IMG/VR virus record: IMGVR_UViG_3300006874_000043
Coordinates: 1 to 36,819 of that record
Source of the DNA: a virus
Reading direction: 5' to 3' (one strand)
Length of the DNA: 36,819 bases
Positions 266 through 36,819 of the stretch are shown here, in pieces (the stretch's first letter is position 1; every line of letters begins with the position of its first letter). The notes beneath the pieces are model-generated. The model saw nothing but the letters and a program-made list of their open reading frames with translations, was not told the origin of the DNA and ran no database searches. Made by a program: the position numbers and the translations under genes.

Positions 266-3200
266 TATACGATCGCCCTACTGTTAGATGCTCTTCTTGC
301 GAGTTTTCTCACCGATGATGTAAACGGTCTACCTTCAATCCGTCCTGTTCTACCATTAATTCTCAATCCTCTAGCAAAGTATTGGTTGTTCAATTCGTCA
401 GCACCTGACCAACGAACCCTACCACCTTCTTCAGAGGAAACAGAAGCCAAGGCCGAAATTGGAAGACCAATGTTTCTAAAGTTCAGAGGTAGAGCCGTTC
501 TATTTACACCAGCCGAAGCACCGTTAAACTGGTGAGCAATAGATTCAACCAACGAACCGAATACCAATGTGTCAGGTCTCAAAACATTTCCTAATATAAT
601 GTCATTAAATAGACCGTTAATCATGTTATTCTCGTCCGTTCCTCCGTTCAAATTACCTGTAATATAATCTCTCATTCTTTCCCATGATTTATAGAATGCA
701 TACAAGAGTTGATCATTATTAGCACCGTCATTTACCCAAATTGTACCGTTCCAATAATATACTGTTCCTGAGTATCTATTTCCATTATTATCCGTCGGTA
801 CTATGTAAGCATCATTCCTCTTGATTGCAGTTGTATCAACACTATTTATATCCGTAGTAGTGCCCTTAAAGTTCAATCCTCTCGTTACAGGATTAAATAC
901 AGGGAATACATGAGTACCATCATAATTAAAGAATGATGCAACAAATGTTCTTGTTGCCTTGGATGAACCTTTACCTTCAACACCACCATATCCTGGAGCA
1001 CTTGTGATTGCAGTATTAATGAATCTGAAATCATTAGCAATTGTATACAATAGATTTAGAGCATCACGTCTTGTCAGATTTATATCAATAAAGTTATATT
1101 CTTTATTAACAAATCTTACAATCTCTGACTGCAATTCATTTCTCTTAGCAACCAAAACATCTCTTGTAAATGAGTAAACCTGATCCGTAGCATAGCTGAA
1201 GTCTGGATATTCAAGTGCAGGTAATCTCTTTGTATCATTATTTAGGAGTGTTTCATACAAGATATTAGCAAGATCTTGAACCTTAGCACCTTCAACTGTT
1301 GTTGCTAATTCTTCGAATGCATTAACCTCTGGATCATTACCTAGAATAACATCCTTACAAATATTGCCTAATTCACGATATGCCTTTGCAGTTGGAATTC
1401 TCTGGTTTTCAGGAAGTCTCAAAATATTGTTCCAGTAGTAGAAATCAGCATTCCATCTTGTTGCTGCATTACCACCGTAGTTTAGGTCGAAGCTAAATGC
1501 AGGAATAATATATTGTGTAACATCTCTGCGACACTTAGCCTTATTATAATCCAGAACCGTAAATTCTTCTCTGAGCCAATCTTGTACATCATCAGCCAAC
1601 ATATCAGCATTATCATCAATAGTATCAGCTGCCCATATCTTATCTGCATTAACCCAGGTCAAGTCTGGCTGTATCAATTCCGGAATTACAGCAGTACTGT
1701 CTGCTCTAATTACATCCTCAACAATACCAATTAGATTTTTAACCTCTGCTGCGGTTGTGCCATCTGATGGTTCAAAGTCAAAGTTTTGAGTAAGACCAGT
1801 ATTTGCAGATGTATCAACCTCAAGAACAATATCAGACATAAGGTCAGCCATTTCACGGTATACCTCAGCAGTCTGGATTCTTGTATCAACTGGTAGAACA
1901 CTAACACCATTTTCAAAGTAAATTTGAGCAGATATTCTTGATGCGTGGTTTGTCTGATAGTTAATGTCGTGTGACACAGCATCAACAAGATAACCCATAT
2001 CTCTGCGACATTTCTCTCTTGGGAAACTCAAGCCGTTATATGTATCAGAAATATATCTGATCATATCTTCTACCAATGTTCCTGTATTATCCTCAATAAG
2101 ATCTTTTGAGGCAACAAAGTGTGAATCAACCCAAGTAATAATAGGATCAACTCTCACTGGTATATTTGATGGATCCTCATCATCCGCAATTGCAGAAATA
2201 ATCCAAGCCAAATTTCTAGCCTCTATTGCAATATCAGTTCTGACAGGATTACCACCTGGCAGACCAACAAGATCAACTGTTTCTGAGTTACCGTTTGTTG
2301 GTGTTACAGTTTCACGTTTAATGAGTTTTTCAATTACCTCACCAAGATGGGCAAATGCTCTTCTTGTAGGTTCTCTTTGATCTCTATCAAGAACATTAAT
2401 TGCGTTTTCAAAGTAGATACCAGCACAATTATGAATTGCTGCATTGCCACCGTACTGAATATCATGTGAAATTGCATCAACAATATACCCAGTATCTCTG
2501 CGGCATTTTGCCTCATCATACTCAAGGAAATTGTACTTTTCATTTAGGAATTGTACGACTGTGGTCTGAACCTTGGCCTTAACATCATCGTTAATTTTGT
2601 TATAAGCAATTTGATATTCCAAATCATATCCAGTAGCATTTGCATTTGTAATATCAAGCGCGGTTGCTGCCGGCATTTCAATTAGACTATCTGCTGTAAT
2701 AACATCTGAAACAATATTAAATAATTCTTCTACCCGAATACCAACTGCGGCATTTACAGCACCAAATGAAACCGTATCTTGTGTTTCTGGGTTACCAGCA
2801 CTCTTAGCAACTGGTTGTTTCAATACAATTTGTTCCGCCACTGCTGCAAGATGAATAAACGCCGCGGCGGTTGGTGCTTTCTGATCCGGAGGAAGTACAC
2901 TTACTGCATTTTCAAAATACAGTCTAGCAACATCACGGATACCTACATTTGTATTATGTCTGATATCATACGATACTGCATCAACCATATATCCAACATC
3001 ACGGTAGCACTTGTTTTGATCATATGTTAATGATGGGTAGTTAATTCCAAGCCAGGCAAGTACCTCAGCTTGCATGAATGTTCTATTTGCCTGAAGCCCT
3101 TGTTGTGCGCTCAGGTTAGATGTGCTTGCTTGTGCAGATCCAAATACATAAGCTGGAGCCGTATCAACACCATTTGATAGCACATCAAACAGATTACCAA

Positions 3201-6200
3201 AATATGTTCTTGATCTGTCGAGTGCATTACCAGTTAATTGATTTTCGATTTGGCGTTGTACATATCTGAAACCTTCAATTGTTTCTGAAAGTTGATCATT
3301 AATTACGATATCAGAACCAACGGTACCTGATCTGTATGCTCTGCCGGCATAAATTGAATTATAGTTACTACCAGAAAGAATATCTCTGGCAACTGCATCT
3401 ACAATATAACCAGCATCTCTAGCACATTTGCCTTCCTCAAATGTGAAGAATACATCGTTGATATAGGCAACCACTTCCTCTTGTAGGAATTTTCTATTTC
3501 TTTGAAGTGTTTGTCTAGCAAATGTTCTCTTCGGTTCATATGAAGGATTGCCAGAAATTATAGGTAAATCACTAGGTTCTTTATATTCATCTACTGCATT
3601 TGCAATGGTCAATACAAGATTCTTAGCAGCAAGTGCAGTTGTAGCATCCGCGGCATCTCCATCTGTATTTTGTACGATAGGTGTAGTATTTGCAAATGGA
3701 GTTTCCGCAATGACATCCTCAACCAAATCAGCCATATGGATATATGCCGCTTTGGTTGGCTCTCGTTGATCCTTAGGCAAAATATTAATTGACTTGATAT
3801 AATCAACATAGTTTGTAGTATTTGGATTTGTATCCAATGTCGAAGCAGGTCTTGTCTGCTTCTCTGGATAGCCTTCACTCAATTCTAGTGCAGCCTCGAA
3901 GTATTCCTTGGCAGCAGTAATTGTTGCTTCATTACCACCGTATTCAATATCCTGAGCAATTGCATCGACGATGTATCCTACATCACGGCTACACTTAGCC
4001 TCATTATAGGCAAGTCCGTTATATGTTTCTGAAATGAATGTAATTATTTCATACGCATATTTCTCTCTTGCACCATTGATATATTCAAACGCATCCTGTT
4101 CTGGTGCAGCAACCGTAACTGTTGGTTCCTCAACTGCAGGAAGATCATTGAAATCATCACCACGGATCATATCTGAAACTATTCCAAACAGATCTTGTGT
4201 TCTTTGAGAAATTGCAAGAGCAGAATCCTTAATTGCATCTGCTGTTGCCGAAATAAATGTATGAGCACCTTCATAACCACCAGCATCGCCAACATCCACT
4301 GTAATTGTAGTTGATGTTACGGCAATAATTGGCAGAGCCTGGTCATATGCAGGATCTGTTGGTCGTGGGTGAGAAATTTGTTGTGCAGGTGAACCACATT
4401 CCCATGTAATACTTTCCTGTGCAATATTAATTCTATCACCAACCACAAAATTATGAGCACCGATAGTTGCAACCATAATACCAGTCAATGGATCATATGT
4501 GGCATCTGTTGGTGTGAATCCACCTGGAACTGTTAAGTCCGCATTTTGTGGGTTTGTGCTTGTCTTTTCTACTGGTTGTCCACGGACAATTCTACCAGCA
4601 AGTGCAGCAATTCTTTCAAATGCTTCTGCTGTAATTACCTTTTGATTTTCTGGCAATACACTTACTGCATTATCAAAATAAAGTCTTGCATTATTTACAG
4701 CCGCAGAATTTGATCCATGCTGGATATCAAACGAAATTGAGTCAACAAGATAACCCACATCTCTTTCACATTTTGCAGCATCGTATGTAAATGTTGGATG
4801 ATTTGCAGCCATCCATGCTGTAACCTCAGCCTGCAGGAATGCCTTATTATTCTGAAGTGCAATTCTAGCATTTGTATGTGCAGCACTTACAGAGGCAGAA
4901 CCAAATGTAATAGCATCAGCATTTCCTTGACCGTTATTCATAATATCAATAATTTCATCAAATGCTGCATTAGATCTTGTTAGGGCAGTTCCACTTAGGT
5001 TACCACCTATCTCACCCTTCAGCCAAGTGATAGCACCAACAGTTTCTGTAAGTTGGTCGGTTACCACAAGGTCAGTACTTGTGTTTCCTGAGCGATAAGC
5101 TAGACCAGCAAACACTGAACTAAAGTTAGAGCCTGTCAGTACATCACGCTTAACTGCATCAAGGATTAAACCTGTGTCACGTGAGCATTTTGCCCCATCG
5201 TAAGTGAAGTAATTTGAATTAAGATATGAAACAACCTCAGCTTGAATAAATTCCTTATTCGCCAATAGTTGTTGTCTAGCTTGGACACCGCCTCTAGTTG
5301 CTTGTGTATGGATAACACTACCTGGTCTAGCACTTACAAATGTATGAGTACCTGAGTAACCAGCGGCACCAGCATCAAACGTAATTGATGTTGCAGTAAC
5401 ATTTGTAATCTCAATTGGAACACCGTAGTTTGGTTCTCCAACACGAGGGTTGGAAATATATTCTACTGGTGAGCCACAGGACCAAGTGATACCGTAAGGT
5501 GCGATTTCTACAAATTCGCCAATCTGAATATTGTGAGTTCCAATTTCAAGAACGGTTGTACCTGTAACTGGATCATATGTGCCGTTTGTTGGAGTATGTG
5601 TTTCGATTATTTTAGCAGGATCACTCCAAACAAGAGCATCAGCATTAATTGCCCCGGCATCAGCACGAATAAATGTATGTGCTCCAGTATAACCACCGGC
5701 ATTACCAACATAAACTTTAATTGTTGTTGCATCACTTTCGTGAATTCTTACTGGTGTTTTGTATGCAGGATCACCTGGTCTTGGATGTGATATTTCTTCC
5801 GCAGGACTACCACATTCAAATGTCATACTTCCTGGAGCAATTTGGATCCAGTCGCCAGCATTAAGATTATGTTGACCAAGATCAACCACCATTTCTCCAT
5901 TTACAGGATCATATGTTGCTGTTCTAGGTGTATATGAACCAGAGTATGTTGCCAATTTAATTGCATTTGCATTAGCACTGATAAATGTATGAGCACCTGT
6001 GTAACCACCAGCGTCACCAACGTTTAATTTAATTGTGGTGGCGGTTACCTCGAGAATTGTTTGGGGTGTTCTATACGCTGGGTCAGTCGGTCTTGGATGT
6101 GTTATCTGAACAGCAGGTGATCCACATTCAAATGTCATACTTTCGTCAGCAATAAGTACCTGTTGACCGACAACCATATCATGCTCACCAATTGTAACTT

Positions 6201-35899: not shown

Positions 35900-36601
35900 A
35901 TGGGATTACCTAAAATTGATCTTCCGCTATTTGAGGTGTCACTACCTTCGGATGGCAGAAAGATAAAATACAGAGGATTTACTGTAAAGGAAGAAAAAAT
36001 TCTTTTGGTTGCTCAAGAATCCGAAGATCCAACACAGGAAATTTTAGCAACTAAACAGGTACTGAATAATTGTATTTATGATATTGACGTATCAGAATTG
36101 GCTATGTTCGATTTGGAATATATCCTTCTTTTGCTAAGAGCAAGGTCAGTTAATAACACACTTTCATTTGCCATAAAAGATCCAGATACAGGTGAAACTG
36201 TTGAATTAGAATTTGATATTGACGAGTTGGAACTAAACAGAAATCCGGAACACAGTAATAAAATTAAAATCAATGATGATTGGACTCTATTTCTAAAATA
36301 TCCAACGATTGATGAATTTATTAATATTTCAGAATATGACAGTGATGATCCTTTGGTTAATTATTTTGTTATGACATCATGTTTGGATAAAGTTGCATCG
36401 GAGGATGAGGTTCACGATTTTAAGGACTACTCGCCTGAACAAATTGATGAATTTATGGATAACATGTCACCAGAGGTGATACGAGGAGTCCAAAATTTCT
36501 TCACAACCATGCCACGGCTAAGACAAGAAATGAAATATACAAATAAGGATGGGAAAGAGAAAACATTCGTAATGGAGGGTATGAAGACTTTTTTTATCTA
36601 G
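35900..36601 (+). CDS. 26: Baseplate hub/tail-assembly protein gp26, zero-frame product (233 aa)
   Basis: The protein has the gp26-family pattern: an N-terminal beta segment LPLFEVSLPSDGRKIKYRGFTVKEEKILLVA, a helical stretch (QEILATKQVLNNCI) and an acidic C-terminal half with TLFLKYPTIDEFINI and VRNFFT-like VQNFFTTMPRL. Length is close to T4 gp26 (208 aa). gp26 is an assembly factor of the baseplate hub. The strong ribosome site TAGGAG lies 12 bases before the ATG. The frame ends at TAG 36599-36601, directly at a -1 frameshift signal (see next entries), so a longer product is also expected. It sits immediately upstream of the probable tape-measure gene, the usual place of tail-assembly chaperones. 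Confidence 0.85.
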   Translation: MGLPKIDLPLFEVSLPSDGRKIKYRGFTVKEEKILLVAQESEDPTQEILATKQVLNNCIYDIDVSELAMFDLEYILLLLRARSVNNTLSFAIKDPDTGETVELEFDIDELELNRNPEHSNKIKINDDWTLFLKYPTIDEFINISEYDSDDPLVNYFVMTSCLDKVASEDEVHDFKDYSPEQIDEFMDNMSPEVIRGVQNFFTTMPRLRQEMKYTNKDGKEKTFVMEGMKTFFI

Positions 36602-36660
36602 TGCTGAGTCATATTACGCTCGGTGAATATTATCAGATGACGTTCGCTTTGGCTCAGCAC
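36574..36660 (+). promoter_or_regulatory. Programmed -1 ribosomal frameshift signal at end of gp26
   Basis: Elements in order: SD-like GGAGGG at 36574-36579; nine bases later the slippery heptamer T_TTT_TTT at 36589-36595 in the gp26 reading frame; a five-base spacer; then a stem of GTGCTGAGTC (36601-36610) with GGCTCAGCAC (36651-36660). The stem is ten pairs, one of them G-U, and closes a 40-base loop that itself can form a small hairpin (36611-36615 with 36626-36630). The zero-frame stop TAG (36599-36601) lies between slip site and stem. This is the arrangement of stimulated -1 sites such as dnaX and many tail-chaperone genes. Confidence 0.82.
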
Positions 36661-36765
36661 CATAAATACTCAATAAGTGATATTGAAAATCTGATGCCCT
36701 ATGAAAGAGACTTGTATTTCCAAATGTTAATTAACTATATTGAAAAACAAAACGAAGGTAACTAA
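36595..36765 (+). CDS. -1-frame extension of gp26 (gp26-gp51-like fusion tail, 56 aa)
   Basis: After slippage the -1 frame reads YLVLSHITLGEYYQMTFAL, then QHHKYSISDIENLMPYERDLYF and ends IEKQNEGN at stop 36763-36765. Joined to gp26 residues 1-232 it would make a protein of about 288 aa. The pattern ITLGEYY, HHKYS, MPYERDLY is one I know from small T4-like phage proteins encoded right after gp26 and often labelled tail-assembly or gp51-like. An alternative is separate initiation at GTG 36601, but no ribosome site is properly spaced (GGAGGG is 21 bases away). Internal initiation at ATG 36637 would lose the conserved start. The position before the tape-measure gene fits a G/GT-type chaperone. 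Confidence 0.75.
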   Translation, partial: YLVLSHITLGEYYQMTFALAQHHKYSISDIENLMPYERDLYFQMLINYIEKQNEGN

Positions 36766-36767
36766 AC

Positions 36768-36819
36768 ATGGCTAAATTGTCGGACGAAACTCAGGCCATT
36801 ATTGATAGACTAAAAAAGG
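36768..36819 (+). CDS. 29: Start of putative tape-measure / hub protein gp29 (truncated by window)
   Basis: The ATG at 36768 is two bases after the stop of the gp26 extension. Only MAKLSDETQAIIDRLKK is visible. This start resembles what I recall of gp29-type tape-measure proteins of marine T4-like phages (SDETQAIIDRLK), and the position after the gp26 pair is the normal place for the tape-measure gene. With 17 codons the identity is provisional. Confidence 0.55.
   Translation, partial: MAKLSDETQAIIDRLKK

Follow-up and report, generated by a model that had tools for sequence, protein, structure and literature searches.

The window analysed here comprises the whole stretch of 36,819 nucleotides (positions 1 to 36,819 of IMG/VR virus record IMGVR_UViG_3300006874_000043), comes from a marine phage related to T4, and carries near its 3′ end a plus-strand open reading frame (ORF; 35900–36601) for a gp26-like protein of 233 aa, the short form of a tail assembly chaperone (TAC-N). 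The ORF ends with ACT TTT TTT ATC TAG, its stop codon being the TAG at 36599–36601. Its assignment draws on a predicted fold (described below) and on matches to PF12322 (T4_baseplate, the gp26 family; E = 8.5e-52, 176.4 bits against a gathering cut-off of 24.5) and phrog_150 (1.8e-57). A tail tube gene lies upstream (phrog_45, 2.4e-35), and downstream begins a putative tape measure gene on the same strand, of which the window holds only the start (36768–36819) before its end cuts the gene. In a 99% identical contig (L001, ORF 1148–3166), this putative tape measure protein is 672 aa long, and its matches to PHROG tape measure families are weak (3.4e-4 and 4.3e-4). The chaperone locus thus has a tail tube gene on one side and a tape measure gene on the other, the latter called from its position together with the weak profile matches.

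In some cyanophages, the gene in the tape measure position has enzyme domains. The large S-PM2 gene directly after the frameshift pair (S-PM2p207; 2386–3711 of locus L081) has ADP-ribosyltransferase-like domains (PF01129, 3.1e-6; PF03496, 1.7e-5). At two loci where this position follows gp51 (L266 and L268), the gene is annotated as an endolysin in S-CREM2 and as a SleB hydrolase in S-SCSM2R.

Overlapping the end of the gp26-like ORF, the −1 frame of the plus strand is open from 36595 to 36762 and stops at TAA (36763–36765), two bases before the ATG at 36768. This region (36595–36765) consists of 56 codons plus the stop and encodes a gp51-like C-terminal segment that would belong to the long form of the chaperone (TAC-NC); it matches phrog_634, a family named for the baseplate hub assembly catalyst gp51, with E = 4.3e-21. 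For comparison we sampled 80 close relatives as well as sets around S-PM2, Pelagibacter phage HTVC008M, and Sinorhizobium phage phiM19, and collapsed the loci at 85% gp26 identity into 102 clusters, which share ancestry, so that counts among them cannot be taken as wholly separate events. In all 102 clusters the −1 frame stays open over 55–73 codons, and every cluster retains a conserved domain around HHKYS and PxER, and pN/pS is 0.20–0.35 in the −1 frame only. This selection was observed directly, as were the signals described next and their conservation and covariation.

A slippery heptamer, T_TTT_TTT, occupies 36589–36595 in the gp26-like frame. The motif T_TTT_TTY was found in frame near the gp26 3′ end in 247 of the 251 loci whose stop could be read; three of the four exceptions carry G_TTT_TTT and belong to a single lineage, and the fourth is a broken ORF. 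Counted by cluster, the motif is present at the 3′ end in 101 of 102 (248 loci). The base preceding TTT TTY is T in these 101 clusters, where codon usage in these genes would predict about 55, and the first Phe codon is TTT in all 102, compared with a TTT share of 69% elsewhere. Elsewhere in these genes, just 2 of 104 Phe-Phe pairs read T_TTT_TTY. At several loci where the 0-frame stop has shifted 21–24 nt downstream, the heptamer has kept its position, the one that the −1 ORF requires.

Two observations concern slippery runs more generally. Across the entire window, TTTTTTY runs are depleted (nine sites, whereas shuffles predict 41) while the slip site is kept, which looks as if such runs were avoided elsewhere in the window. 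The lineage with the altered heptamer (L048–L050) reads ACG TTT TTT, with G_TTT_TTT at 3690–3696 of L048, and retains both a 10-bp stem and an open −1 frame; it may slip more weakly or use another pairing.

Upstream of the heptamer, separated from it by 9 nt, is an internal Shine–Dalgarno (SD)-like sequence, GGAGGG (36574–36579), a probable stimulator. Anti-SD pairing at the Glu-Gly codons before the slip site averaged −6.25 kcal/mol over the 102 clusters, compared with −4.70 kcal/mol in synonymous shuffles (t = −9), indicating at the sequence level that the SD-like site is kept beyond what the protein needs. Its spacing fits that of known −1 stimulators such as the one in dnaX.

On the downstream side, a 5-nt spacer (36596–36600), equal in length throughout the close clade, separates the heptamer from a predicted stimulatory stem whose arms lie at 36601–36611 and 36650–36660. 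Positions 36601–36610 pair with 36651–36660 through nine Watson–Crick pairs and one G-U pair around a 40-nt loop; an additional A-U pair (36611/36650) extends the stem to 11 bp and reduces the loop to 38 nt. The region has a minimum free energy of −23.2 kcal/mol (z = −3.7), which none of 200 shuffles equalled. At its fixed spacing, the 11-bp stem was 91.9% paired among the 36 close clusters, compared with 22–53% when slid, and its covariation score was 0.241, compared with 0.141 in shuffled alignments (reached in 0 of 500). One pair occurs as UA, AU, UG, GC, and CG within the close clade, evidence of compensatory changes. Taking the 102 clusters together, the 72 nt that follow the slip site had a mean z of −2.1 relative to synonymous shuffles of the −1 frame, while the internal control gave −0.31. 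Hairpins outside the close clade stand at similar spacing: the S-PM2 group has a different, AU-rich one of up to 17 bp, the P-SSM2 group has another (AGTATGGCTCA), and further lineages again have long-range stems. A chance origin of the junction layout was considered and rejected: the pattern GGAGGG-N9-TTTTTTY occurs once in the window and in none of 100 shuffles, the stem stands out by the z value given above, and the layout is common to all close relatives.

These features are most readily understood if a single gene yields short and long tail assembly chaperones through a −1 programmed frameshift, a reading that we hold with high confidence. An earlier note, made from the letters of the window, had proposed a −1 frameshift in the manner of lambda G/GT that joins the gp26-like protein to a gp51-like tail, and the comparison now strongly supports this proposal through the near-universal heptamer, the stem covariation, and the selection on the −1 frame. 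What that note had read from the bases held up base for base (GGAGGG, the 9-nt gap, the in-frame T_TTT_TTT, the 5-nt spacer, the 10-bp stem, and the 40-nt loop), as did its coordinates for a −1 frame of 56 codons ending two bases before the putative tape measure start, and the domain that it called conserved-looking proved to match phrog_634 and to be conserved in all clusters. The alignment of the junction that it suggested revealed a heptamer kept in 101 of 102 clusters, a spacer and stem kept in the close clade, and other hairpins elsewhere. Relatives that lack the heptamer and instead offer a clean ribosome site and an ATG for gp51 were also looked for, and this search did not refute the frameshift.

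The gp51-like segment could alternatively be made as a free peptide if ribosomes terminated at the TAG and restarted at the GTG that overlaps it (TAGTG, 36599–36603). A GTG or ATG overlaps the gp26 stop in many relatives as well as in the window, and annotators of T4-like phages mostly give gp51 as its own gene. However, several relatives have ACG or GCG at the overlap, and 31 of the 102 clusters contain no ATG, GTG, or TTG before residue 14 of the −1 frame, even when the open −1 stretch upstream is included. Codons 3–13 of those 31 clusters are nonetheless under protein-level selection, with a pN/pS of 0.32 in the −1 frame compared with 1.07 and 1.46 in the other frames; a separately started protein therefore does not explain the −1 segment. 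The SD-like site, 21 nt from the GTG, is too distant for ordinary initiation, and reinitiation would leave the conservation of heptamer and stem unexplained. We consider this explanation very unlikely, while some reinitiation at TAGTG may occur alongside frameshifting in some species.

The run of seven Ts in the window also brings to mind slippage by RNA polymerase, which would generate mRNAs of altered length and thereby a fusion at the level of transcription. In 65 of the 102 clusters, however, the slip site consists of six Ts followed by C, which is short for polymerase slippage, and a conserved stem at fixed spacing combined with an upstream SD-like site corresponds to stimulators of translational slippage, making a transcriptional origin extremely improbable. 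It might finally be argued that the T run merely encodes a conserved Phe-Phe motif, invariant in the short protein, next to a −1 ORF that is a separate gene. Against this, the synonymous third base of the preceding codon and the choice of TTT for the first Phe are far more constant than codon usage predicts, and T4 gp26, which requires no frameshift, has TTC TTT for the same two Phe residues; we find this account scarcely credible.

Under the frameshift reading, most ribosomes would stay in the gp26-like frame, terminate at the TAG, and yield the 233-aa short form. The remaining, smaller share would pause at T_TTT_TTT, held by the hairpin 5 nt downstream, with anti-SD pairing to the upstream GGAGGG probably adding to the pause. 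The paused ribosomes would slip back by one base and read 56 more codons, producing a long form of about 288 aa with a gp51-like tail. If lambda gpG/gpGT is a guide, the short form could coat the tape measure protein, whose gene follows, and the tail of the long form could recruit tail tube subunits. That ribosomes slip here, how often they do so, and what the two forms do are inferred.

To evaluate the fold of the short form, we used an AlphaFold2 model built from 86 relatives (mean pLDDT of 85.9). Structural realignment of residues 1–86 placed RBSTP2171 (PDB: 3FGX; Z = 7.8), HK97 gp13 (PDB: 2OB9; 7.5), and YqbN (PDB: 3KLU; 6.4) at the top, and the next, unrelated chain scored 2.7; the top Z values are moderate, but the gap to the rest is clear. 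Among these three PDB titles, one (HK97) names a tail assembly chaperone; YqbN is a prophage tail-region protein. The modelled N-terminus of the gp26-like protein appears to share the HK97 tail assembly chaperone fold at these moderate Z values. HK97 gp13 and YqbN have the same predicted N-terminal domain fold, but their sequence identity to the gp26-like protein is just 11–16%, and the latter is about twice as long. A sequence search of the PDB with the gp26 alignment found no relative, and a Foldseek search of the model against the PDB returned nothing significant by E-value (HK97 gp13 at E of about 1); the chaperones were set apart from other chains by the realignment and not by the Foldseek E-value.

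The lambda gpG/gpGT system, and tail assembly chaperone frameshifting more widely, was reportedly described by Xu, Hendrix and Duda in 2004. The lambda locus likewise combines a short protein with a −1 extension just before the tape measure gene, an in-frame heptamer, and a stem. It differs in its heptamer, G_GGA_AAG compared with T_TTT_TTY here, and the window has a larger short form (PF12322) and the additional SD-like element. In a 2010 review, gp26 and gp51 appear as hub assembly chaperones (PMC3004832). According to the PRFect paper (PMC10885494), which refers to Vladimirov, Gautam and Davidson 2022 (Virology 566:9–15), some T4-like phages do without frameshifting and have two copies, a short one and a fused long one. 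The 2025 paper on phage Adele (PMC12846349), referring to the same 2022 work, states that T4-like phages are known to have poly-T slip sites in their TAC-N genes. Together these two statements indicate that the principle of a T4-like tail chaperone frameshift is already published; the dual-chaperone idea that the earlier note presented as new for T4-like phages was, as these citing passages have it, described in 2022, with poly-T slip sites cited as known. The locus reported for Vandenendeviridae and Andersonviridae in the Adele paper similarly has a poly-T near the TAC-N end and a −1 extension before the tape measure gene and is usually misannotated, but its motif is GTTTTT and these are other phage families than that of the window phage (PMC12846349). 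In the literature searched, which included Vladimirov 2022 through its citing papers, covarying stems, lineage-specific stems, and the SD-like element were not found stated.

The T_TTT_TTY motif was also present in Kyanoviridae, in Pelagibacter, Methylophilales, and Sinorhizobium phages, and in Straboviridae outside the T4 core (AS-zj, Cronobacter S13, and KVP40-like phages), and Rhizobium phage RHph_I1_9 has T_TTT_TTG at the slip position. The more distant Vibrio phages Kuja and K452 (L261 and L262) have C_CTT_TTT or G_CTT_TTT with an open −1 frame and a related tail; these sites resemble the GTTTTT reported for Vandenendeviridae.

The earlier note had further suggested that T4-like gp26/gp51 would enter the same scheme, which for T4 itself proved wrong in mechanism. 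T4 gene 26 ends with GAG TTC TTT GAG TTA CTA TAA, which has no slip site, and its −1 frame is closed. The minus strand encodes this gene and the plus strand encodes gene 51; the two form a divergent rather than adjacent, co-directional pair, which recurred in 10 of 10 T4-type loci. T4 gp51 matches PF12322 over residues 1–201 (3.9e-52) and phrog_150 over nearly its whole length, in addition to phrog_634, and BLASTP detects the paralogy between gp26 and gp51 (3e-6). As divergent paralogues in which gp51 combines a gp26-type domain with phrog_634, T4 gp26 and gp51 are hard-wired versions of the short and the long form, respectively. The protein families are the same as in the window pair, gp26 corresponding to the short form and gp51 to the long form, but T4 uses two divergently transcribed paralogous genes without a frameshift, whereas the window has one gene and a slip site. 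The two-gene arrangement of T4 was not found in the window: the source contig, a fragment, holds one PF12322 domain, and the −1 ORF has only 56 codons.

In a tree, the short, long, and frameshift forms made three clean groups; its root is arbitrary, and the direction of change therefore rests on taxonomic spread. The wide spread of frameshifting suggests that it is ancestral. We lean slightly towards a history in which the heptamer and SD-like stimulator stayed near-invariant across several phage families while the hairpin was replaced by non-homologous hairpins in different lineages, and in which a duplication later cost the T4 lineage its frameshift, with the long form hard-wired as gp51.

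None of 20 annotated frameshift-type records contained a joined two-frame gene. gp51 was annotated as a separate gene in S-PM2, P-SSM2, and others, annotated from an internal ATG in S-RIM8, HTVC008M, and Melnitz-1, and left unannotated in S-CAM8, ACG-2014d, S-BM3, AS-zj, and S13. The internal-ATG calls (L256 1255–1392, L082 2253–2390, and L269 1555–1698) drop conserved residues that the −1 frame supplies, and the gp51 segment is unannotated in L281, L282, and L283.

For marine T4-like phages, an abundant group in viral metagenomes, this analysis settles the relation between gp26 and gp51: the "baseplate hub assembly catalyst" gp51 of these phages would be the frameshifted tail of gp26 and not a gene of its own. 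These loci also provide a natural series for the evolution of a frameshift stimulator and for the replacement of frameshifting by gene duplication in the T4 lineage.
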